A DNA stretch of 64,000 bases, taken from assembly GCA_002869925.2 (NCBI GenBank), contig NEWT02000035.1, forward strand, positions 364,475 to 428,474, in the 5' to 3' direction. The DNA is from Nitrospira sp. CG24A (lineage in GTDB: Bacteria > Nitrospirota > Nitrospiria > Nitrospirales > Nitrospiraceae). Shown one piece after another: positions 2,294 through 29,175 of this stretch; within the stretch, counting starts at the first letter, position 1, and each line of letters begins with the position of its first letter. The notes beneath the pieces were generated by a model. It saw nothing but the letters and a program-made list of their open reading frames with translations, had not been told where the DNA came from and did not search any database. The translations under genes were made by a program, and so were the position numbers.

Positions 2294-3184
2294 TCATTTT
2301 TTCTCTGATTTCACACCAGAAACCGCGCAACGAAATCCAATCGTTTCATCGCGAAAATCCTGAACCATCTTGCTCCGGCTGGTAATGCGAATATCCGCTC
2401 CAGTAGTCGCGTAGCCTCCTCCACGAAGCACCCGAAATACACCATGATCAGGGCTGGGGGGGTTCTGATCCGGAGCCTCTTCGTAGTAGCGTTCCGCATA
2501 CCAATCATCTACCCACTCCATGACATTACCTGCTCCATCCATCACACCGTACGGACTCGTATCTGTCAGAACCGTCCCGACAATTGCGGAGACTTCATGG
2601 CCATCCTCTACCCTCGCCCAATTGGCTCCGTTGGGCTGCTCAACATTACCCCAAGGCCACAGGCGTCCATCAGATCCTCGCATCGCTTTCTCCCACTCAG
2701 CCTCAGTCGGAAGTCGCTTTCCTTTCCAATGACAATAGGCCTCCGCATCCTCCCATGACACATAGACCACAGGCTGATTGATGCTTAACATCTTGCTCAT
2801 ATTCTTGGCGTAACGAGCAGGAGGACCGGACTTGCGATGCCCGGTCGCATCCACAAATTGCTGGTACTGAAAATTAGTCGTTTCGTACCGATCAATAGCA
2901 AAGGCACCCAACATCAGCGTCCGTTGCGGTCGCTCGTCGAATCCACCATGATCGGTCCCGCGGATAAAGGGTCCTGACGGAATTGAAACCATTTCCTCCG
3001 AGACCGGCTCTTCATGAGCTGCCTGAGACGGAGCATGCGACTCAGATGGGGTTGAATTTATGGAATCCGCAGGCGGCGCTTCAAATGGAGTCAACGTGGT
3101 ACCTCGAAGGATTCCCATGATAGGAATCGCAGCAAATGCAAGGACGGCAATGAGAAACATGACCTTGAATTTGGTTTCAAGCAT
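2294..3184 (-). CDS. SUMF1/FGE-sulfatase-fold domain protein, membrane-anchored
   Basis: MVSIPSGPFIRGTD..., RLPTEAEWEKA, GNVMEWVDDWY, VLRGGGY, GFRC motifs; N-terminal TM. Confidence 0.85.
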   Translation of the reverse strand: MLETKFKVMFLIAVLAFAAIPIMGILRGTTLTPFEAPPADSINSTPSESHAPSQAAHEEPVSEEMVSIPSGPFIRGTDHGGFDERPQRTLMLGAFAIDRYETTNFQYQQFVDATGHRKSGPPARYAKNMSKMLSINQPVVYVSWEDAEAYCHWKGKRLPTEAEWEKAMRGSDGRLWPWGNVEQPNGANWARVEDGHEVSAIVGTVLTDTSPYGVMDGAGNVMEWVDDWYAERYYEEAPDQNPPSPDHGVFRVLRGGGYATTGADIRITSRSKMVQDFRDETIGFRCAVSGVKSEKK

Positions 3185-3189
3185 GTCGG

Positions 3190-4113
3190 TTATGACGCCA
3201 CGGGACTGTCGCTGGCCTCCATATCACTTGCACAACGAAACCCAATCGTAATATCCGTCCGCCAGGCTTTCGCGGCAAATCGCTTGGACAGCCGCGCAGT
3301 ATGTTCGGTCTCCCGCCACGACCCCCCACGCACCACTTTCAAATCTGCACGGTCCGGACCTTTCGGATCACGAAAGGGCGCCTTCTGGTAATAATGCTCA
3401 TCGTATGAATCGGCAACCCATTCCGCGACATTCCCTGTCATGTCGTAAATGCCATAGGGACTTCTCCCCGACTCGAAGGACCCGGGAGGCGCAAGATATC
3501 GATAGCCATCTTCGTTCCCATCCAGGTTCGCATTAGCCCGGCCATTCTTGACGGTATCACCCCACGCATATTTCCGTCTTCCCTCACCGCGGCCGGCCTT
3601 TTCCCATTCCGCCTCCGTAGGAAGACGCTTTCCGGCCCATTTACAATAGGCCGCCGCCTCATCCCAGGTCATGCTCATCGCCGCAAACTCAGGCTTCAGT
3701 AGCTTAGATTGATCGTCTTCAAACACTTCGATCTTGGGTAGCTGCCGCTTGGTCATTTTGGCGAACCGGGCATACTCCTCTTGCGACACTTCTTTTCTAT
3801 CGATATAGAATGCGCCTAAAAACACTTGCCGTTCCGGCACCTCATCTGGATCACCATCTTTGCTCCCCATAATGAACGGGCCATCGGGAACCTGCACCAT
3901 CTCTCGCCCTTCATCTCCTATTTTCGTCTTATACATAGAATAATCCAGAGAGGGCGCGCTGGTTGGCGCAAGCCGAGCCTCGGTCTTAATCGACGCGGCC
4001 AGTGCCTTCATCTGCTTCGCCTTATAAGACTCATAGACCAGCAAGCTGATCATGAGGATGAACGCCCCAAAGACAAATACGATCGAGCCGACAAGCACTC
4101 CCTTATTTTCCAT
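3190..4113 (-). CDS. SUMF1/FGE-sulfatase-fold domain protein, membrane-anchored
   Basis: VQVPDGPFIMGS, RLPTEAEWEKAGRG, GNVAEWVADSYD, VVRGGSW, GFRCAS; N-terminal TM. Confidence 0.85.
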   Translation of the reverse strand: MENKGVLVGSIVFVFGAFILMISLLVYESYKAKQMKALAASIKTEARLAPTSAPSLDYSMYKTKIGDEGREMVQVPDGPFIMGSKDGDPDEVPERQVFLGAFYIDRKEVSQEEYARFAKMTKRQLPKIEVFEDDQSKLLKPEFAAMSMTWDEAAAYCKWAGKRLPTEAEWEKAGRGEGRRKYAWGDTVKNGRANANLDGNEDGYRYLAPPGSFESGRSPYGIYDMTGNVAEWVADSYDEHYYQKAPFRDPKGPDRADLKVVRGGSWRETEHTARLSKRFAAKAWRTDITIGFRCASDMEASDSPVAS

Positions 4114-5189: not shown

Positions 5190-7085
5190 TTAGGCCTCTT
5201 GCGACGACGACGGCGGCGGCGCCAAGACCCTTGCATTTCCCTCGGCTAACTCTTCTCCGATCGCAGGCGATTGATCACGCTGAGACATCCAGAACAGGAC
5301 GAGTACCGCCCCCCAGAATACCATCATGTTGAGCGTCACCATCTTCGCCGCAAACGCAAAATCCGGTGTGAAGGCCCAAGGAGAGACATCCGCCATCAAC
5401 TCGCTGACATGCCAGGCCAGCCGCCCGGAAGAACGGATATAACCCATGAGACCCATCACCCATGTGAAGGCTGCGGCCAGTCCAAACAACCCCGCCATGC
5501 CCCTAAGAGAAATCTTTCCCCACTGAACCGGCCCGTGAAGAACCGCCCCCTTGAGCATCATGCGATTGATGATGATTCCAACCACAAGAACCGTCAATGT
5601 TGTTGCGGCCTGCGGCGACGACAGCCCGACACGGAGCTTCGCCGGCAGGTAGTACCCATAGACTGAGAGCCAGATAATGTTGAGCGACCCCAAGAAAAAC
5701 AGCGCGCCGATGAGGAAGTTCCCTTTCGTGACCCAGGGCACAACCATCGTTCGATTGGCGCGGCGGTAATACAGAAAGCTCATGGTGGTCACGAGAATCA
5801 TGATGTTGACCGCGCCGTTCTTTGCCGACATCACTCCATAATTGCCGACCACGGGATGCGACGCTCCACCCATCGCCTTCACTTCGCTGGCCGACATAAA
5901 GACGGTATGGGGTGTCAGCCACACAAACAATGCCACCATGAACACCGAAAGCAGCACCTGGTAATAGGGCTGATACCGTTCCCCACCGCGAAGGCGCGCC
6001 ATGCTCTGCCAGAGGTAAAAGTTGACTCCCAGAAAAAGGACGCCGATTAAGATGGCCTGCACGACGAAAAGCCATGTGAGCAATCCGCCCATCATGGTCA
6101 CACCCATACTCTGGCTGAATGAGTAGACCGATCGCATCAACCAGTAGCCGGCAAAGGGCATGGGCAACAACGCGATAACCGTGACAAATAAAAAGATATG
6201 CCCGACCCAGTCGAAATAGGCGCTCTCTTTTTCTGACTTGCTCGTAAAGAATCGATAACACGCGTAGGCCATCACCACCGCGCCGCCGGACATAATATTG
6301 GCCAGGAAACGATGGACATTCAGTGGATTCCACAAAGCCGAATGGAGCAAATGCCATCCATTCCCCAAAAACTGCCCCTTTGCATCGACACCAGCTGGCG
6401 CCATCATGAAAGCCGACCAAGCGTTTGCCAACAGCAGCAGTGCCGTCCCGAAGAGATTGCTCAACAGACCGATCGAGGCATGAGCCCACTTCGAAGCCGG
6501 CGCAGCCAGCCGATTCCAACTATAGTAGTAGGTGATGAGTAGCAGCGATTCTCCGAGAAACACGAACGCGTAGACCGGCATAAACGTTTTGAACGTCCCC
6601 CCCATGTACTTCATGAAGCTGGGATAGAAATAGAGAAAGATCCCCAGCATGCAGCTCCCGACCACGGCCGTCACCGACAAGGCGAGGAGAGCGACTTTTG
6701 CCAGATCCCGCGCAAGGCCGTCGTAGCGAAGGGCGAGTTCGGGGTTTTTGCTCCTGAGCCCAAGAAATTCCAGCAACACACAAAAAATCGGCAACGCGAG
6801 AACAAATCCACCGAAGTAGGTGTGGAGCTGGGTGACGAACCACACGAGTAGTCGACTATCCATTTCCCCAAAACGCGAGTAGACCGTCTCTTGAGGAGAA
6901 GGGGCCGGCGGCCCCTCGGGAGTCCCTGGTGTCTTGAAATACAGGTCGGTGGCCTCCTCGGCAAATGATTGGCTCTGAAGCCCCCAACCAATCCCCAAGG
7001 CCGCGAGCACAACCATCAGCAGGACGGAAAGCCCGATGACTCTGTACGCTCTCTTCTTCATAACCATATGCTTACCTGACAGCAA
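5190..7085 (-). CDS. bd-like terminal oxidase large subunit, second paralog
   Basis: 631 aa multi-TM; paralogous to 1..1655 (SHPVVGNYGVMSAKNGAVNIMI, AGYWLMRSVYSF). Confidence 0.8.
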   Translation of the reverse strand: MLSGKHMVMKKRAYRVIGLSVLLMVVLAALGIGWGLQSQSFAEEATDLYFKTPGTPEGPPAPSPQETVYSRFGEMDSRLLVWFVTQLHTYFGGFVLALPIFCVLLEFLGLRSKNPELALRYDGLARDLAKVALLALSVTAVVGSCMLGIFLYFYPSFMKYMGGTFKTFMPVYAFVFLGESLLLITYYYSWNRLAAPASKWAHASIGLLSNLFGTALLLLANAWSAFMMAPAGVDAKGQFLGNGWHLLHSALWNPLNVHRFLANIMSGGAVVMAYACYRFFTSKSEKESAYFDWVGHIFLFVTVIALLPMPFAGYWLMRSVYSFSQSMGVTMMGGLLTWLFVVQAILIGVLFLGVNFYLWQSMARLRGGERYQPYYQVLLSVFMVALFVWLTPHTVFMSASEVKAMGGASHPVVGNYGVMSAKNGAVNIMILVTTMSFLYYRRANRTMVVPWVTKGNFLIGALFFLGSLNIIWLSVYGYYLPAKLRVGLSSPQAATTLTVLVVGIIINRMMLKGAVLHGPVQWGKISLRGMAGLFGLAAAFTWVMGLMGYIRSSGRLAWHVSELMADVSPWAFTPDFAFAAKMVTLNMMVFWGAVLVLFWMSQRDQSPAIGEELAEGNARVLAPPPSSSQEA

Positions 7086-13249: not shown

Positions 13250-14035
13250 TCAAAATAATCCAGACAGCGACTTCGTCAGTCCTTGCGTCAGCGCTGAGGC
13301 CGCTTCTTCGTAATCAAGATTCGCCTTGTTGGCCGTGCTGACAACCCTGGTGCGATACTTCCTGAACTTCGTCACCTCGGAAGAAGATTGAGATGACGAT
13401 CCCCCGATGCCTTGCTTCAAGGTTTGTTGATTATCCTGCCGCACAATTACTCCCTCGGGAGCTTTTTCAACCAACTGAATGTCAGTCACGACCATGAACA
13501 GCACATCCTTCACAAAAGCGCCCGTCACGGTTTCCGTGAGGCCTCCGACGGCACCTCCAATAAGCCCCCCGCCAACGGCACCTCCATATCCTCCGGCTGC
13601 ATAACCGACCCCGCCGCCTGCCACCGCGCCAAGCGCAATCGCCCCACCATACCCATTGTTCAAAGCCGCTGCAGCGGCTGTCGGATCGGTTTTGGCCACG
13701 CTGAGGACATTGGCTTGGAGCCGATAGTACGCCTTATCGGGACTATCCGTGATGCGATAACCTTTCTTGATCATCGCTTCCTTAAGCGGCCCCGCAATAT
13801 CAAAATTGTCCTTATCTGAGGTATTCCGAACCTGGATATGCATGACCATCTTTTCCGGCTCGACAGGATCGAGAAAGACCGTCTCGCTCATTTTCGTTTG
13901 CACATCAAGGTTTCGTTTGCTAATCATCACTTCTGTCGCAGCGCACCCGGACAGAAACATGAGGGCCACCCCTCCCACAGCTGCACGTAACATAACCAAC
14001 GATTGCAAACCCCTATTATTCCCATCCATCAACAT
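13250..14035 (-). CDS. TraT-like complement-resistance/surface-exclusion lipoprotein
   Basis: Lipobox FLSGCAAT; 'SKRNLDVQTKMSETVFLDPV', central Gly-rich segment, 'ALTQGLTKSLSGLF' as in the TraT family. Confidence 0.8.
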   Translation of the reverse strand: MLMDGNNRGLQSLVMLRAAVGGVALMFLSGCAATEVMISKRNLDVQTKMSETVFLDPVEPEKMVMHIQVRNTSDKDNFDIAGPLKEAMIKKGYRITDSPDKAYYRLQANVLSVAKTDPTAAAAALNNGYGGAIALGAVAGGGVGYAAGGYGGAVGGGLIGGAVGGLTETVTGAFVKDVLFMVVTDIQLVEKAPEGVIVRQDNQQTLKQGIGGSSSQSSSEVTKFRKYRTRVVSTANKANLDYEEAASALTQGLTKSLSGLF

Positions 14036-18864: not shown

Positions 18865-19659
18865 TTACTTGATTTCAGCCTTGAGGTTAGCAGTCCCACC
18901 ATCGGCTACATCGACATCAAACTCCACTTTCTTACCCTTGGCGGCAAACGGATGCCAGGCAACCACTTTGTGCTTACCGGCCGGCACATCCTTGATCTCG
19001 AAGGAGCCATCATCCTTCACGACCGCAAAGTGCGGGCTCGACACCGGGAGGAAGAAACCCTGCATAAACTCATGCTGGTCGCACTGTAAACGATAGAATC
19101 CATCCTTTTCGGCTCCACCGCGGAACACCACTGGCTTGTCGAGCTTGTCACCCTTCTTGGCCAAACCGATATTGAAACCGGTGGCCGAGCTGGTGCCCTT
19201 CACCACAAAGCTGTGTGGATTATGGAGCACGCCTTGAACCGACTTGGGATCATCCGGATCGGCGTCATGGTTCTCAACCTTGAAGGACTTGTTATTTACC
19301 ACCACACCGGCAAACGGCATAAACTCGCAGAATTCCGCAACTATCTCAGTGCCCTGATACCCATCGACGAACGCCTTATCTTCGACATCGATGACGGCAA
19401 CCACCGCGTTCTTCAGACCACCATCCTTACCGACTTCGATGGTCTTCAAGAACCGCTTATCCCCATCCATCAATTCCTTGTGAGGATTCTTCGGACAGAA
19501 CTTGGGATTGGGGAACTTCGAAAACAAAAACTCCTTTTGCTCGGACTTTCCGGCAAAGGTCACCTTGCCGGAAATCGTTCCGCCTGCAAACGAGGTGAGA
19601 GGCGCCGCGACGAACGCGACGGCTGCCACGCCAAATATGATTGATAATGCACTCTTCAT
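18865..19659 (-). CDS. secreted cupredoxin/carboxypeptidase-regulatory-like protein (paralog 1)
   Basis: Signal peptide; C-x2-H-x2-M (CDQHEFM) type 1 copper-like motif plus upstream His (LHNPHSF); paralogous to 22875..23648 and 30487..31275. Confidence 0.75.
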   Translation of the reverse strand: MKSALSIIFGVAAVAFVAAPLTSFAGGTISGKVTFAGKSEQKEFLFSKFPNPKFCPKNPHKELMDGDKRFLKTIEVGKDGGLKNAVVAVIDVEDKAFVDGYQGTEIVAEFCEFMPFAGVVVNNKSFKVENHDADPDDPKSVQGVLHNPHSFVVKGTSSATGFNIGLAKKGDKLDKPVVFRGGAEKDGFYRLQCDQHEFMQGFFLPVSSPHFAVVKDDGSFEIKDVPAGKHKVVAWHPFAAKGKKVEFDVDVADGGTANLKAEIK

Positions 19660-19906: not shown

Positions 19907-20359
19907 CTAGCCTTTGTTCGTTCTGGTCAACCCAAGCAACTTTATCGACTCCTGCGCAGCGGTACGGGCTTTAGTCGCGGGATTAAGAAGCTGTCCTGGA
20001 TCGGCATGGATTCCGATATCCGACACACGACTGCACTGCCGGATCACTTCGTTGAGAGAAGCCATGGCATCGGTTCCATGTCCATCTGACAGTGGAAGCT
20101 GTTTGATAATCGCTTTGGCAAAGCGCGCTGCCTCTCCGCAATGATGAACAATGGCCTTGGCATCTCCCATGCCACCATGCGCCACCATGTCTTCAACGTT
20201 CTGCATCAGACCATCGCCTTGCTCTCGCAGATTGGCACTGGATGGTTCCACTGCGCGTGCTTGGCCCCCATCTGGAGGAGTGGGAAACCACAAGCCTGCA
20301 ACGCCTACCAATGCGACGACCAGCAAACTTCTGCTCTTGATCATCTGAAATGGGTTCAC
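19907..20359 (-). CDS. small secreted His-containing protein, SmbP-like (paralog 1)
   Basis: VEDMVAHGGMGDAKAIVHHCGEAARFAKAIIKQLPLSDGHG, shared with 22448..22864. Confidence 0.55.
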   Translation of the reverse strand: MNPFQMIKSRSLLVVALVGVAGLWFPTPPDGGQARAVEPSSANLREQGDGLMQNVEDMVAHGGMGDAKAIVHHCGEAARFAKAIIKQLPLSDGHGTDAMASLNEVIRQCSRVSDIGIHADPGQLLNPATKARTAAQESIKLLGLTRTNKG

Positions 20360-20788: not shown

Positions 20789-21700
20789 ATGCAGGACAGC
20801 CGCCACACCACTCGACACAGCAACCAACTTCCCAGACCTCTTCACGCCTTGAGATATATCCTCATGGCGATACTCATAGGTGCATCGCTGCTTCGCACTG
20901 CATCGGCGGCGGCGATCGATCCTGTCGAAGCCATTGCCGCGCTCGCCAGCAGCGCTCCCATGCTGACGGTCGCCGAAGGCCCCTTTATCATGGGCACCGC
21001 CCGCACAAGCCACGAACCGTTCAGCTTCGATCTCCAGTACGACGACACAGAACAGCCACAGCGTCGCGTCTGGCTCAGTCAGTATGACATCGATCGGAAC
21101 GAAGTAAGCCTGGGAGAGTATCTGCTGTGGCTACGACAGCAACAGCGCTCCCTTCCCGGTGAACTGCGGAAACTGATTGAGCATGTCACAACGATCCATG
21201 CCATGCAGCCCGAGACACTGACACGTTGGCCGGCACTCTACGTCACCTGGCCTGAGGCTTCGGACTATTGTCGCGCACGTGATAAGCGGCTGCCGACGGA
21301 AGCCGAGTGGGAGAAAGCGGCGCGGGGGGACAGTGGCAAGCTCTTTCCTTGGGGACAGAGCCCCCCCACGCCGGCGCTCGCGATGTTCGGGCAGTATCAC
21401 GCTCACGAGATTCCCATCGTGGCTTCTGTGGACAGTGGAGAAGAAGGGCGAAGCCCCTATGGCCTGCATCATATGGCGGGAAACGCGGCCGAATGGGTCG
21501 AAGACTGGTTCGGGATCGACTATTATGCGACCATGCCGGATCGCAACCCCCACGGACCTGCCAATGGCCGATACAAGGTGGTGCGCGGAGGATCGTGGAA
21601 AAGCGCGCCGGCGTTGCTGCGAACGGCTACCAGAAGCGGAGCATCGCCGGATCGGCGCGCCTCGACCATTGGATTTCGCTGCGCACGATCCGTGCACTAG
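20789..21700 (+). CDS. SUMF1/FGE-sulfatase-fold domain protein
   Basis: VAEGPFIMGTAR, RLPTEAEWEKAARGD, GNAAEWVEDWFG, VVRGGSW, TIGFRCAR. Confidence 0.85.
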   Translation: MQDSRHTTRHSNQLPRPLHALRYILMAILIGASLLRTASAAAIDPVEAIAALASSAPMLTVAEGPFIMGTARTSHEPFSFDLQYDDTEQPQRRVWLSQYDIDRNEVSLGEYLLWLRQQQRSLPGELRKLIEHVTTIHAMQPETLTRWPALYVTWPEASDYCRARDKRLPTEAEWEKAARGDSGKLFPWGQSPPTPALAMFGQYHAHEIPIVASVDSGEEGRSPYGLHHMAGNAAEWVEDWFGIDYYATMPDRNPHGPANGRYKVVRGGSWKSAPALLRTATRSGASPDRRASTIGFRCARSVH

Positions 21701-22447: not shown

Positions 22448-22864
22448 CTATGCACCACTATCTCTTAGCGCATTGAGATGCCTCACTGCCTCCCTGACTG
22501 CCGCACGGGCTTTGGCGGCAGGATTCAAACTGGCTCCGGGATCGACCTTATCGCCCATCTCAGCCACCCGCGTACACTGTTTGATGGCTTCCTGCAAATG
22601 AGGCACGGCGTCCTTGCCATGCTCATCGGTGAGCGGTAACGATTTGAGAATCGCGTCCGCATGTTTCGCCACTTCACCGCAGTGATGCACGATGGCCTTC
22701 CCATCACCCATCCCTCCGTGCATGACCATGTCTTCGGCATCTCGCAGCATCGCTTTCCCGCGGTCCTGGAGATTCTTCGGCGACTCCGCATGAGCGAAGG
22801 ACATCGCAACTAAGAGAGACAGTGCGACGACGCTGAGGGCTTGAACGGTTCTATTTTTTACCAT
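22448..22864 (-). CDS. small secreted His-containing protein, SmbP-like (paralog 2)
   Basis: AEDMVMHGGMGDGKAIVHHCGEVAKHADAILKSLPLTDEHG; same architecture as 19907..20359. Confidence 0.6.
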   Translation of the reverse strand: MVKNRTVQALSVVALSLLVAMSFAHAESPKNLQDRGKAMLRDAEDMVMHGGMGDGKAIVHHCGEVAKHADAILKSLPLTDEHGKDAVPHLQEAIKQCTRVAEMGDKVDPGASLNPAAKARAAVREAVRHLNALRDSGA

Positions 22865-22874
22865 GAGTCTTCGG

Positions 22875-23648
22875 TCATTTCGCGTCGAATTGGACGTCGA
22901 CCGTGGCGGTACCGTTCGGCTCGACCGTCAATTCCCGTTCCTGGACACCCAGAATCGGGTGCCAGGCCTTTACGCGGTAGGTGCCTGGCGGAAGGTCCCC
23001 GATGGAAAATGCGCCGGCCGCGTCCGTCACGGCATAATAGGGATTGTCGATCGCGTACCCCCAATTCTGCATGTAGGGATGCACGCCGCACTGCATCGTG
23101 AAGACTCTACGCCCCTTCACTAAATGTACGATATCGGTGGTCCCGGTCGCTTTCAGCGAAGGCCGATGCAGGACAATATCCACCCCAGCCTGGTCGTAGG
23201 CATAGCCCTGAATATCGTGCGACACAGGATCTCGATTGGTCACGGTCAGTTGTCGCTTATCGCTCACGACCGTGACGAAGGGAAGAAACTGGCACACGTT
23301 GGCTTCGACCTGGGCCTCCGTAAAGGTGAAGGGTTTCCCGCTCCGCACCCCTTCCACGACGATCACCACATCCTTGAGACCGCCGCTTTGTCCGACATGC
23401 ACTTCCTTGAGCAACCGATGGCCGTCACCATCGGAAAGGGCGCCACAGAACGTGCTGTCCGGGTATCGGCGCAACTCGAATTCTTTGGGCTCCGGTGCAG
23501 TCCCTTGAAACGTCACCCTGCCCCGCAATACCGCTCCGTCAGTCACGACCACTGTGTCATACGCGCGTGCCGGTACAAGGGCTCCGAACCCCATACTGAC
23601 TTGCACAACCGCGCCAAGACACAGGGCCGTCACGATCGACCGTTTCAC
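22875..23648 (-). CDS. secreted cupredoxin-like protein (paralog 2)
   Basis: MQCGVHPYMQNWGYAIDNPYYAVTD (C-x2-H-x2-M) with DPVSHDIQGY; signal peptide. Confidence 0.75.
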   Translation of the reverse strand: MKRSIVTALCLGAVVQVSMGFGALVPARAYDTVVVTDGAVLRGRVTFQGTAPEPKEFELRRYPDSTFCGALSDGDGHRLLKEVHVGQSGGLKDVVIVVEGVRSGKPFTFTEAQVEANVCQFLPFVTVVSDKRQLTVTNRDPVSHDIQGYAYDQAGVDIVLHRPSLKATGTTDIVHLVKGRRVFTMQCGVHPYMQNWGYAIDNPYYAVTDAAGAFSIGDLPPGTYRVKAWHPILGVQERELTVEPNGTATVDVQFDAK

Positions 23649-23676: not shown

Positions 23677-24273
23677 TTACTGTTGTATCTCTCCCGGCGG
23701 ATTGGCCCAATCCAAACGTCGCGGGAGTTCGAATAAGAACGGAGATTGCTTCGTAAAGATCAACCGTTGAAACTCCTCGGACCAGTTCCCCTCTTTACTC
23801 ACCGTCTTTACGGGAAACCGCTGCACCTTGGTCACCCACTGATAGTAGTGCCGCTCGCCTCCATCTTCAGAAACCGTCACTTCGAACAGTTCAGTGGGAT
23901 AGCCGTTGAGTGTCTGATCACCGACGAGTTCGCGCGAAAGTTCCCCTTCCATCGTCTCACTCACTGCCAATTGATGGTCTCTCGTTATCGGGACCTCGAG
24001 ATATTGCCGACGCTTGGACAAAATGAGCCAGGAGCTCTGGCGGTCCATCCGCACAATGATGATACTGGCATCCCCCTGCGGTCGAGCGAACTCGAACCGC
24101 CAGCGATCATCCGTGGCATTGACATGAGCCGTCACCACAGACTTCCCGCTCTTCACAATTCGCTCAGCGGAGAAATCGAGTGCGGTTGCGTCATCAGCTA
24201 TGATGGCGAGTGCGAATGATATCAGCCATCCCAGGCACCGCTGAGACTTTTCTCTCTGCCCCCTTTTTCCCAT
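23677..24273 (-). CDS. secreted protein, DUF4412/LolA-like
   Basis: Signal-like N-terminus; 'SSWLILSKRRQYLEVPI', 'GYPTELFEVTVSEDGGERHYYQWVTKVQRFPVKT'. Confidence 0.5.
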   Translation of the reverse strand: MGKRGQREKSQRCLGWLISFALAIIADDATALDFSAERIVKSGKSVVTAHVNATDDRWRFEFARPQGDASIIIVRMDRQSSWLILSKRRQYLEVPITRDHQLAVSETMEGELSRELVGDQTLNGYPTELFEVTVSEDGGERHYYQWVTKVQRFPVKTVSKEGNWSEEFQRLIFTKQSPFLFELPRRLDWANPPGEIQQ

Positions 24274-24402: not shown

Positions 24403-27400
24403 CTAGTTGGCCTTCATGGATACCGGCATGGATTGCGCCGGGACCTGTTCCTCGGCCTGCTGTGTAGCCGGCGCCTGCCCGCTCAACGGCAAGATCGCAC
24501 GACTGTTGCGGTCGAGCACCGTCAGCGTTCCCCACTGACCAGCATCCAAATACCCTGGCCGCTGGTTCAGCCACAGATAGCTGCCAGGAATCCCGTTGGG
24601 ACCTCCGGCCCCACCATGCAGCCAGGCATTGATGACCTCGGTGCCGCCGAACTCCATGGTGCTCACGAGGTCCGCTCCGCTCAAATACGGCTCGTGCTTC
24701 CACTCATGGCCCGATACGCTGAACAACTGTATCTGCTCGCTAAACGCACCCAGCACATGAATCACAACCGGGTCGCCCACATGCGCCGCGATGCTCGGGG
24801 TCACCGGCTGGTCGCCCGCCTTGACACAGACGAGCACCTCGCTATACGCACAGCCCTTCTCGACCCGGTAATCGGTCGGCTCTGACCGGTAATTCACCGC
24901 CGTCACGCCGGCCACTTTTTGAATATAGGGCATAAAGCTGGTGCCGATGATGTTGTCTTCGTCCTGGAACAGGAGGGCAAAGGACCGATAGTTTTGTCGA
25001 GTTTCGTTGCCTGGAAGTTTCCGATCCACGATCACGTCCGCCCGCCAGGAACTCTTCTGGCTCAGATCTTCGCCGGTGGCCGGATCGCGATACTGCGATC
25101 CCCTTGGGCCGATGATGATCGCTCCAAAGAGCCCGTTCCGTGGATTTTCAATCACATTGCCCCAATCCTGAATCAGGGCGGCATTCTCCCCGAACTCCGG
25201 ATGGGCGAAGAACGTGTAGGCTCGGCTCTGCCCCGGCGCCACCGTCTGGTCGCCTGGATTGTTCCCGGCGTTGATTCCCATCGATTCTTTGGGATCGAAC
25301 GCCACATGGTCCACGTGGAACCCGGCCCGATCCTTCGCCATCTCGTTCCTGAGATTCACCTTGATGCAATCACCCACGTTCACATGCAGGGTCAACGGGC
25401 TCGGGTCAACCGTGCCCGCCGCGACCTTGGTCTTCTCGCCTTCGAGCACATACATCTTACCGGTCTCGTTACCCAGCACCATCTTTCGCTCCATATCCAC
25501 TTCCATCACACCAGGCGTTCCCTTGTTGTACCGAATCGCCTTGTCGATCGCTGCCACGTTGAAAGTCTTCACCGGCGCGTTGGCCGGGCAGACGGATTTA
25601 GCCGACTGCGGAATCTCTTCCCGGCCCGGCAATGGCTTCAGTGTCGCATCCGCTTTATCGAGCACCCGGAAGAGGCCCCAGCTGCCTTCCGCGAAGTGCG
25701 ACGCACGGCCGCTGTAGTAGGGATAGTCACCCGCCATCTGTTGCGGTCCTCCTGCGGCAGGAATGGCCGCGTCGTACCGTTCTCCGATCACCACGTGCAG
25801 CGAACTCCGAGGAATCGAATCCTTGCTGTACCGCTCCATTGGGAACCAGTGGCCGCTGATGTGCCAGGAATGCACTTCATTGGCCGATCCTTCGATTAAT
25901 CGGACCACGATCGGATCACCCAAGTACGCCCGCAACATCGGGGTTTCGGGATCGCCGTGGATCAGACTGCTAAACAGCTGCGACGGATCTGGATTGTTCG
26001 CCAGCCGCACAGACAGGGGCTCTACACGCATGTTGTAACCGCCGCCCGTTGTCGCTTCGCCACCGTTCAAAAACTTCAATGGCGACATGTTGAGTTTGGC
26101 CGGATAGACTGCAGTCGGAGTACCGTCCACCGAAATGGCTCCCACTCTCGCCTGTGGATTATCGGCCGTGATAAGTTCCGAGGTCCGGGGATTGGAATCC
26201 ATAACTTGGGTCACAATTTCACGGAACGACCCTTTGATATGCGCGGATACCGGTTCGAGGGTGTGAATATCCGCCACCGGCCCGCTGCGGACTTCTTTGC
26301 CGGTCACCGGGTCATGATAGGTGGAGCGAGGCGGTTCGGCAATGAACGTGGAGTAGAAACCATGGCCCCACCCGTCCAATCCAAACACATGATCGTGCCA
26401 GAAGGTGGTGCCGAAGTCGGCATCCACATACCACCGCTCACGGATCCACTCCACCGACACGATCTCGCCCTTCTTATGGTTATACTTCAGCGGCCGCTCG
26501 AACGTGATCTGGTTACCTTCTATTTTACTGATGCGCGCAGACTCGAACCCACCCACTTCGTCCATCCCCACGCCTAACTCAGTCTTGAGGTGATAGCGTG
26601 AGGCGTCCTTCACCTTGATACTGGTCGCCCCCTTGGCCACATCGGCCTCCACCGTCGTGTTCATCGGCACGGGCATGCCCTTGCCGGGATGCTCGTCCTT
26701 CAGAATCGTGAACGGCCGCAACGACATCTCATACGAGAAGCCGATAATCGGTCCGTCAGACGCTTGCGTGTCAAACTGGAACATGTGCGGATGCAGGTTC
26801 GTCTTGCTGGAGAACCCTTGCCGCACATCGTCTTTCAACTCGCTCTTATATACGACATCGATACAATCCTGTACGTTGCCACGAATCACCAGCGGCATCT
26901 GCTTGGCAGGATTCTTCCGGACTTCCTGCTCTTCTTCATGCAGCACGTAGAGCAATCCTCCCGGATCCACGATCGCCGGCGTCTTGGCCGTCGCTTTTTT
27001 CAATGTGATCGGCAACGCAATTGCATGGATATTGAAGTACTTCTGCGGCGCCCCTTCCGGACACAGGCTCCAGGGCCCTTGCTCGCCTGGTTTCGGCGGC
27101 TCAGTGGAGTTGCTACCGTCGTCACGGCGATGGATCGGCTCCAGCCATGGCGCACCACTGTGGCTTGGAGAGAACGGTACACGCCGGCCCAGGTGCGGAC
27201 GTAACCACGGCCAGGCGATCTTGCCGGATTGCGGATCGAAGAGAATCTCCTGCCGCTTACCGGGTGTCGCCGACTTGTAGTTGACCCATTCATACGTCGT
27301 CTCGGGTTCGCTGAGCGCCTTGCGACCATCCCAGGCCCAGTCGTTGACGGTCGAGTCGTAGGCCAAGGTCTGCTCTTTCTCGCTGTTCTTCTTGCCCGGC

Positions 27401-29175
27401 TTGCCTTGCGGCGTGAGCATCATCTCCACCCAATCCTTGATGGAAACCTTCACCGGATCGGATTTCCAATCGGTCTTGTCCTGGGTAATCTCGTACTTCT
27501 TGCCGCCGTACCAGTCCACCGTCGTGCCGACAAGCTTGTCCGACGGAGTGCCTGTCTTGATCTTGCCGACACGATCCGGCAGTTCGACCAGCGGCTTCAT
27601 CACGTCGGTCTGGAAACCCGCCTGCTGCAGCGTGTTGTACACACGCCAGAAACCCCACATGCCCGTCACATAATGTTGCGGGATGTGGCAATGGAACACG
27701 AACTCACCGGCAAGAGCCTGCAGGCCTCCCGAACCACCCTCAATTACCTGATCGTAAACTTCTGTCGGCCCGATGGACTGTACGTCCAAACGGTCTGAGG
27801 GGTCGCTGATCGCAGGAAATTTCACCGGCCCGTTCTTCGACAAGGCAAAGTCAAGGTTGCTGTTCCCTGGCTGGCGTGCCCAGCGAATTGAGCCGCCATG
27901 GAGGTGATGCGAATGCACGATTTCCGACCCGCCCGCCATCCGGAACTTGGCTGGATCGCCGAGATAGGATCGAGGAACAGTTGTGGCCGGGTCACCAAAC
28001 GTATAAGACCCATAGGCCATGGACTCGTCGCCGTAGAAGCCCATATGGGCCTGAAGCTCGATGCGCGTGCCATGCGGTTCGCTGCGATAATTCAATAACC
28101 GCGCGCCAGGCCGGTAGGAATCGGTATGTGGATCCCGCTGGGGCAGCATTTCGCCCTTCTTATTCAAGAGGCGAAACGCTTCGTCGCCGGCCTCATGATA
28201 GAAAATCGCGAATTCTCGGAAGTCCGCGCCCTTCGGATCTTCGATCATGGCCTCCCAGCCGCTCGCCATCGGCTTGCCGTCGAAGGGGCTGAGATAGCGT
28301 GAGCCGCGCGGCTCCACGACGAGCATGCCGATCAAACCCTGGTTGAACTGTTCGCGCGATGCATGCGACCGGAAAAATCGCGCACCCTCCTGAGTATCCG
28401 GATTGATATACCACTCGAAAGCCTGCTGCCCGCCTGGTGCAATCGTACCTTCTGGATTTGAGGGGGTTGCGGGCTTGCCGTTAGACGCGACCACCATGGA
28501 GGAACCGTTGACAATCAAGTTGGTCGGTTCATCTGTGATTTCGTTGTGGAGGGTAAGCTTGAGACAATCGCCCTGGTTGGCCCGGATTACGAGCGGCTGA
28601 ATGGCATCGCCCTGCAACCCGTTTGACACGGCGCCGGGATCGTTCTCCTTCTCCCGCGCTTCCCTGTTCGCGACTTCTTCGCCACGGACCTTTTCAACGT
28701 TTTCCTTCAGCGCATACATGTAACCGGGGAAGTAGTCGAGAAACCGGCTCAGCGTGATTTCGACGTTGATCGCCGAGACGTGATATTCCTTCACCGGCGC
28801 ATTCGCCGGGCAACGCTGCCCGGCCGTGACGGCGATTTTTGTCGGATCCTCCGCTACCAGCAGAACACCCTGCTGCAGCATGTGACTGTTCGCGCCGGTG
28901 CTATATCCACCTTTCTGCCCGATGGATTCCTGTTGACGCTTTATCTCCTCCATCATGCGGTCGTGCAGGACCGCTCCGCCTTCGCGATAGATGACCTTCT
29001 CCGTCGATGCCTGCCCTTCCTCGCCTTGATGGTTGTGCTGGTCTGCTGCCAACCCCATCGGAGCTGTCAGCAGGCTGCTGACGAACAGCACAACCGGCAG
29101 ACTTGCTGCCATGCGATACGCGCGGCAGCTGCGCGAACTCAATACCATTTTCATGCCTCGGCCTCCTTCTTCCAC
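24403..29175 (-). CDS. giant secreted multicopper oxidase (1590 aa), MCO1
   Basis: Signal peptide; HSHHLH, HCHIPQHYVTGM, NLHPH and WHDH copper motifs; threefold repeat of CPxxAPxKxFN and PRGSxYxDPxTG modules. Confidence 0.85.
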   Translation of the reverse strand: MEEGGRGMKMVLSSRSCRAYRMAASLPVVLFVSSLLTAPMGLAADQHNHQGEEGQASTEKVIYREGGAVLHDRMMEEIKRQQESIGQKGGYSTGANSHMLQQGVLLVAEDPTKIAVTAGQRCPANAPVKEYHVSAINVEITLSRFLDYFPGYMYALKENVEKVRGEEVANREAREKENDPGAVSNGLQGDAIQPLVIRANQGDCLKLTLHNEITDEPTNLIVNGSSMVVASNGKPATPSNPEGTIAPGGQQAFEWYINPDTQEGARFFRSHASREQFNQGLIGMLVVEPRGSRYLSPFDGKPMASGWEAMIEDPKGADFREFAIFYHEAGDEAFRLLNKKGEMLPQRDPHTDSYRPGARLLNYRSEPHGTRIELQAHMGFYGDESMAYGSYTFGDPATTVPRSYLGDPAKFRMAGGSEIVHSHHLHGGSIRWARQPGNSNLDFALSKNGPVKFPAISDPSDRLDVQSIGPTEVYDQVIEGGSGGLQALAGEFVFHCHIPQHYVTGMWGFWRVYNTLQQAGFQTDVMKPLVELPDRVGKIKTGTPSDKLVGTTVDWYGGKKYEITQDKTDWKSDPVKVSIKDWVEMMLTPQGKPGKKNSEKEQTLAYDSTVNDWAWDGRKALSEPETTYEWVNYKSATPGKRQEILFDPQSGKIAWPWLRPHLGRRVPFSPSHSGAPWLEPIHRRDDGSNSTEPPKPGEQGPWSLCPEGAPQKYFNIHAIALPITLKKATAKTPAIVDPGGLLYVLHEEEQEVRKNPAKQMPLVIRGNVQDCIDVVYKSELKDDVRQGFSSKTNLHPHMFQFDTQASDGPIIGFSYEMSLRPFTILKDEHPGKGMPVPMNTTVEADVAKGATSIKVKDASRYHLKTELGVGMDEVGGFESARISKIEGNQITFERPLKYNHKKGEIVSVEWIRERWYVDADFGTTFWHDHVFGLDGWGHGFYSTFIAEPPRSTYHDPVTGKEVRSGPVADIHTLEPVSAHIKGSFREIVTQVMDSNPRTSELITADNPQARVGAISVDGTPTAVYPAKLNMSPLKFLNGGEATTGGGYNMRVEPLSVRLANNPDPSQLFSSLIHGDPETPMLRAYLGDPIVVRLIEGSANEVHSWHISGHWFPMERYSKDSIPRSSLHVVIGERYDAAIPAAGGPQQMAGDYPYYSGRASHFAEGSWGLFRVLDKADATLKPLPGREEIPQSAKSVCPANAPVKTFNVAAIDKAIRYNKGTPGVMEVDMERKMVLGNETGKMYVLEGEKTKVAAGTVDPSPLTLHVNVGDCIKVNLRNEMAKDRAGFHVDHVAFDPKESMGINAGNNPGDQTVAPGQSRAYTFFAHPEFGENAALIQDWGNVIENPRNGLFGAIIIGPRGSQYRDPATGEDLSQKSSWRADVIVDRKLPGNETRQNYRSFALLFQDEDNIIGTSFMPYIQKVAGVTAVNYRSEPTDYRVEKGCAYSEVLVCVKAGDQPVTPSIAAHVGDPVVIHVLGAFSEQIQLFSVSGHEWKHEPYLSGADLVSTMEFGGTEVINAWLHGGAGGPNGIPGSYLWLNQRPGYLDAGQWGTLTVLDRNSRAILPLSGQAPATQQAEEQVPAQSMPVSMKAN

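Follow-up and report, generated by a model that had tools for sequence, protein, structure and literature searches.

The two giant multicopper oxidases (MCOs) encoded in a 64,000-nucleotide stretch of Nitrospira sp. CG24A, hereafter the window, are in our firm judgment MnxG-type six-domain enzymes, built from three fused two-domain units and retaining their trinuclear copper site at the interface between domains 2 and 3. Both genes lie on the minus strand as intact open reading frames: MCO1 (24403..29175) encodes 1590 aa and is assigned by its PDB and NCBIfam matches, and MCO2 (31399..36162) encodes a paralogue of 1587 aa that is ~70% identical and alike in motif order. The N-terminal hydrophobic stretch of MCO1 resembles a Sec signal as judged by eye, and the two proteins are probably secreted.

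Along both chains the copper-ligand motifs follow the order HxxHxH, HCHxxxHxxxxM, HxH and HDH, and with HxxHxH, HCHxxxHxxxxM and two HxH motifs the full ligand set for a type 1 and a trinuclear site is present. In MCO1 these are HSHHLH at 27898..27915, within VHSHHLHG at 27918..27895 (H421 type 1, H424 type 2, H426 type 3); HCHIPQHYVTGM at 27658..27693 (H495 type 3, C496 type 1, H497 type 3, H501 and M506 type 1); NLHPH at 26785..26799 (H795 type 2, H797 type 3); and WHDH at 26389..26400 (H927 and H929, both type 3), all on the minus strand, with the copper type of each ligand assigned by analogy with CueO. A motif scan located the MCO2 counterparts, also on the minus strand, as HSHHLH at aa 417 (34897..34914), HCHIPQHYVTGM at aa 491 (34657..34692), NLHPH at aa 789 (33784..33798) and WHDH at aa 922 (33388..33399). 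An earlier note on this DNA had reported the four motifs in this order in both proteins, as we also find, and its positions for VHSHHLHG and WHDH (26400..26389) are exact; two of its end coordinates needed correction, since 27673 closes only the 7-mer HCHIPQH (27693..27673) whereas HCHIPQHYVTGM as a whole extends to 27658, and since NLHPH, correctly started at 26799, ends at 26785 and not at 26782. The ordered motif set arose in none of 20,000 shuffles of MCO1. The layout of three-domain laccases, CueO and CopA, with HxH motifs N-terminal and HxxHxH and HCH C-terminal, is absent from MCO1 and MCO2. That the order differs from laccases, as the note had said, is borne out within the same genome, where a three-domain MCO encoded elsewhere has the usual order (HWH at 106, HSH at 148, HPLHLH at 553 and HCHLLLHMEAGM at 601), and the order in MCO1 and MCO2 is therefore no quirk of the organism.

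All 12 ligands, and thus all four MCO1 motifs at their ligand positions, are strictly conserved in a set of distinct relatives from Nitrospiria (160/160), drawn from Nitrospira genomes and other members of the class, including one Manganitrophaceae protein and 39 Pseudomonas-type MnxG proteins from Nitrospira genomes. The same was true of a smaller set of full-length relatives (99/99) and of all six plasmid-borne MnxG-type homologues, which represent other phyla and come from Streptomyces, Bacillus, Priestia, two haloarchaea and Indioceanicola; the complete set holds down to ~25% identity.

Above its cut-offs, Pfam recognized two MCO domains only in these proteins, Cu-oxidase_3 and Cu-oxidase_2. 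Comparison of domain profiles with HHalign divided the MCO1 chain into six domains that fall into two groups, D1, D3 and D5 (E 1e-37 to 1e-48; D1-D3 E 1.9e-37, D1-D5 E 1.6e-48) and D2, D4 and D6 (E 1e-30 to 1e-40), with weak or no similarity between odd and even members; two such clean groups indicate that the chain consists of three tandem odd/even units. Domain 2 (aa 316-540, 27556..28230, minus strand), an even domain that aligned to D4 and D6 and contains the Pfam Cu-oxidase_2 match at aa 396-511, holds the ligands of the type 1 site and one half of those of the trinuclear site, and the odd domain 3 (aa 700-965, 26281..27078, minus strand) holds the other half. The full ligand set occurs at this 2/3 interface only, and type 1 ligands occur only in domain 2. 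The earlier note had placed the site between an early and a later module, which agrees with ligands sitting in domains 2 and 3.

The remaining domains, all on the minus strand, are in various stages of ligand loss. Domain 1 (aa 118-305, 28261..28824) is a cupredoxin of the odd type with degenerate HxH motifs (I221/N223 and R269/H271); aligned to two-domain laccases, its HxH corresponds to IVN in MCO1, from which it follows that this half-site was lost. Both HxH motifs of domain 1 are complete in 11/99 relatives, though not in MCO1 or MCO2. The even domain 4 (aa 980-1185, 25621..26238) no longer has the Cys and Met of a type 1 site but partly keeps its histidines, as judged from HHalign and conservation (H1102 in 91/99 relatives, H1105 in 86/99, H1109 in 99/99 and H1160 in 90/99), and its HSWHISGH stretch (25849..25872), which holds the first three of these, is what remains of a copper site that this even domain once had. 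HHalign places the odd domain 5 at aa 1190-1385 (25021..25608), where H1287 is the only ligand left, and the even domain 6 (aa 1390-1575, 24451..25008) is without ligands by both HHalign and conservation. The histidines left in domains 1 and 4 are traces of lost copper sites.

Two-domain laccases form trimers in which each trinuclear cluster is shared by an even domain and the odd domain that follows it. Applied to a fused ring, this rule gives three possible interfaces, 2/3, 4/5 and 6/1, and where 2/3 is the one kept, as in MnxG-type proteins, the HxxHxH/HCH half comes first in sequence. The earlier note's term "permuted" does not hold on this arrangement, in which two neighboring domains, 2 and 3, of a regular three-repeat chain carry the motifs with no permutation within the fold. 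A true circular permutation or domain shuffling, in which laccase-like motif-bearing domains were swapped, would account for a linear motif order reversed with respect to laccases, but none of the six domains is missing from the regular odd/even series, relic ligands persist elsewhere in the chain, the order needs no rearrangement if one of three interfaces was kept, and MnxG-type proteins across phyla share the order; we consider it very improbable, and motif permutation was rejected on the regular repeat seen in the domain profile comparison. Slighter still is the chance that the protein has no single trinuclear site and plays a structural role or binds copper at several separate sites. The loss of sites from domains 4-6 would fit such a protein, but the invariance of the 12-ligand set down to that ~25% identity, and its presence in the characterized oxidase MnxG, argue against it.

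The closest relative of solved structure is MnxG of Bacillus sp. PL-12, and the similar motif order in MnxG that the earlier note had mentioned is confirmed. This protein (PDB 9bxa, the Mnx H340A complex) was the top PDB match of MCO1 (E 5.7e-101 with the single sequence, 5.5e-266 with a profile), is likewise six-domain with the order HxxHxH, HCH, HxH and HDH, and aligns over most of both chains; the similarity is significant over the whole length, at ~30% identity. Counted along the alignment, the 9bxa ligands are H281/H284/H286, H334-C335-H336, M345, H529/H531 and H575/H577, with an Ala at position 340 that is explained by the H340A in the entry title. The NCBIfam MnxG model matched MCO1 at E 2.3e-31; scores of 107.8 and 135.9 bits for MCO1 and MCO2 fall far below the 3100-bit cut-off of the MnxG equivalog NF041487. 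MnxG of the Pseudomonas putida type, to which NF041487 refers, shares the motif order, and none of the 12 ligands is missing from the 39 examples in Nitrospira genomes, but these proteins are longer (1.8-2.4 kaa), ~25% identical to MCO1 and encoded by a separate gene, which was found in 25/200 sampled class members.

An AlphaFold2 model of domains 1-3, calculated in the apo form from an 88-row alignment, reached a pLDDT of 85.1 and a pTM of 0.88, with moderate mean pLDDT (~71-83) in the ten-residue blocks that hold the ligands. Foldseek searches with this model placed 9bxa at the top (E 1.8e-44 over 866 columns, with a moderate TM of 0.59 by query length and an rmsd of 6.7), followed by ceruloplasmin and trimeric two-domain laccases. 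An earlier model of domains 1-4 from 32 rows, with a pLDDT of 63 overall and <50 in domain 2, was set aside for the site. From homology, we infer that the ligands would converge at the 2/3 interface.

Ceruloplasmin, hephaestin and factors V/VIII also have six cupredoxin domains arranged as three two-domain repeats, and ceruloplasmin matches the fold. In ceruloplasmin and hephaestin, domains 6 and 1 share the trinuclear site and type 1 sites occur in domains 2, 4 and 6 (PMC3600357), whereas in MCO1 and MCO2 the one trinuclear site would lie at 2/3 and type 1 ligands are in domain 2 only; domain 6 has no ligands and the domain 1 HxH pair is incomplete in both proteins, which sets them apart from the ceruloplasmin family. 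Trimeric two-domain laccases (SLAC type) have an odd/even unit homologous to that of MCO1, but form three active clusters from three separate chains, whereas MCO1 would have one cluster in one chain. Vasin et al. 2013 (PMC3600357) placed the trinuclear site between domains 2 and 3 in the bacterial and green-algal six-domain MCOs that they analyzed, with the mononuclear site in domain 2 only for the bacterial ones, and proposed a three-site ancestor. Lucker et al. 2013 (PMC3578206) described an MCO of Nitrospina and N. defluvii that resembles the MCO of Bacillus SG-1 and is encoded within the nitrite oxidoreductase cluster. They suggested for it a role in defense against reactive oxygen species (ROS); likened by description, the MnxG-like MCO of N. 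defluvii and Nitrospina gracilis probably belongs to the same family as MCO1 and MCO2. Given the published 2/3 location and an MnxG-like MCO in Nitrospira, the motif order itself was already known: it is a signature described for the bacterial MnxG family, to which MCO1 and MCO2 add members and not a new order.

Members of this family are widespread in the class. At E <1e-20, 117/299 sampled Nitrospirota genomes had a match, all of them in class Nitrospiria and most with at least two matches, in a count that scored two candidates per genome and may include fragments. In a tree of 44 proteins, obtained by a quick method and with long outgroup branches flagged, MCO1-like and MCO2-like proteins formed sister clades with the Manganitrophaceae protein beside both. 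Two further partial sequences, weighed as a possible split MnxG, occur in the same genome. A third MnxG-like gene (C29, ~568-573 kb; L132:3459-7850) has an ORF of 1464 aa covering domains 3-6 with HIH and HDH present; its N-terminal HxxHxH/HCH region falls at a 100-N scaffold gap and was probably cut by the assembly. A 404-aa lipoprotein-like ORF on the minus strand (C29:195775-196749; L133:4219-5430) matches the MnxG model only up to position 267 and is a fragment of domain 1, with no domain 2 found downstream.

Several genes near MCO1 and MCO2, each on the minus strand, recur with them in other genomes. Downstream of MCO1 lies a gene for a secreted-looking 257-aa protein (22875..23648) with a C-x2-H-x2-M motif and a carboxypeptidase regulatory-like C-terminus (Pfam CarboxypepD_reg), a candidate copper partner in which C187, H190 and M193 are conserved in 69/69 proteins; a 262-aa homologue, supported by Pfam and conservation, is encoded directly downstream of MCO2 (30487..31275). 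In 45/61 testable cases, a gene for such a 257-262 aa C-x2-H-x2-M protein follows the MCO at a distance of no more than 3 kb on the downstream side. A PDB search with the partner returned carboxypeptidase-regulatory-like matches only; with no copper-protein match from that search, its label as a copper protein rests on the motif. Next to it, 22448..22864 encodes a His-rich small metal-binding protein of the SMBP family (Pfam PF16785, E 4.2e-8), and SMBP-like genes were within 4.5 kb of the MCO in 37/61 cases. A 198-aa protein with a weak DUF4412 match is conserved immediately downstream of MCO1 (23677..24273), as judged from Pfam and neighbor conservation, and a 170-aa protein with no Pfam match is a conserved MCO2 neighbor between the two oxidase genes (29972..30484). 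This recurrence suggests a functional partnership between the MCOs and their CxxHxxM and SMBP neighbors.

Several other features of the window are recorded here. It encodes three related proteins that combine CxxHxxM with a carboxypeptidase-regulatory-like part (18865-19659, 22875-23648 and 30487-31275), and no protein of solved structure resembles their copper-motif half at the sequence level. The small proteins at 19907-20359 and 22448-22864 are similar, both with HGGMGD and IVHHCGE stretches, and the second is the SMBP family member. Genes of the FGE-sulfatase (formylglycine-generating-enzyme-like) type lie at 2294-3184, 3190-4113 and 20789-21700, the third being a conserved neighbor of the MCO cluster. 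At 5190-7085 there is a match to cytochrome bd oxidase subunit I, and at 13250-14035 a strong match to the TraT family (E 2.6e-70).

In the mechanism that we propose, an outside reductant would deliver electrons one at a time to the type 1 copper in domain 2 (H421, C496, H501 and M506), and the Cys-His bridge from C496 to H495 and H497 would carry them to a trinuclear cluster held between domains 2 and 3 by H424, H426, H495 and H497 together with H795, H797, H927 and H929, where O2 would be reduced to water. For MCO1 and MCO2, the order of the motifs, the invariance of the ligands, the three-fold repeat and the kinship with MnxG are shown by the analysis, and copper loading, ligand convergence, this electron path and activity are what we infer. 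The reductant could be a metal ion, Mn(II) for example, to which we give a little less than an even chance, or, with somewhat lower probability, an electron carrier such as the neighboring CxxHxxM protein.

What the enzymes do physiologically is a related question, on which two possibilities deserve to be weighed, each of which we hold only tentatively. MCO1 and MCO2 might be Mn(II) oxidases like Bacillus MnxG, which is their closest characterized relative; small metal-binding protein genes are nearby, and a 60%-identical protein is encoded in a genome of Manganitrophaceae, a family that oxidizes Mn(II) and in which every member has two "novel MCOs" (PMC9040806). The authors of that study, however, prefer Cyc2 and PCC_1 for Mn(II) oxidation (PMC9040806), their scores of ~108-136 bits are far below the 3100-bit equivalog cut-off, and the proteins are widespread in nitrite-oxidizing Nitrospira lineages without a known need for Mn(II) oxidation. 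Bacillus MnxG moreover requires MnxE and MnxF (PMC5622069), whereas MnxE/F-like partners were not found in the Nitrospira genome, which had no match to two Priestia neighbors used as queries, chosen by position only and searched without a positive control. Alternatively, and with about the same tentativeness, the oxidases might exchange electrons with an adjacent periplasmic small copper protein and serve respiratory flow or defense against oxidative stress, not mineral oxidation. The CxxHxxM gene lying so often within 3 kb downstream (those 45 of 61 cases), the invariance of its C, H and M in 69/69, the cytochrome bd-like oxidase gene in the same window, and the placement of the Nitrospina and N. 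defluvii MCO in the nitrite oxidoreductase cluster with a suggested role in ROS defense (PMC3578206) are consistent with this, but the CxxHxxM partner matches no solved cupredoxin by sequence and gene neighborhood alone is weak evidence.

More speculatively, and on balance unlikely, the two MnxG-type paralogues, the CxxHxxM copper proteins and the SMBPs might together form a conserved periplasmic module of Nitrospiria in which the type 1 copper of domain 2 trades electrons with the small copper protein and metal or nitrogen lithotrophy is tied to O2, with H1102, H1105, H1109 and H1160 of domain 4 serving as a repurposed metal site. Which interface retains the trinuclear site can differ among six-domain MCOs, and this supports an origin in a trimer of two-domain enzymes whose chains became fused. 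For the biology of Nitrospira, the finding poses the question of what role two conserved MnxG-type oxidases and a candidate copper protein play in nitrite oxidizers and their manganese-oxidizing relatives.
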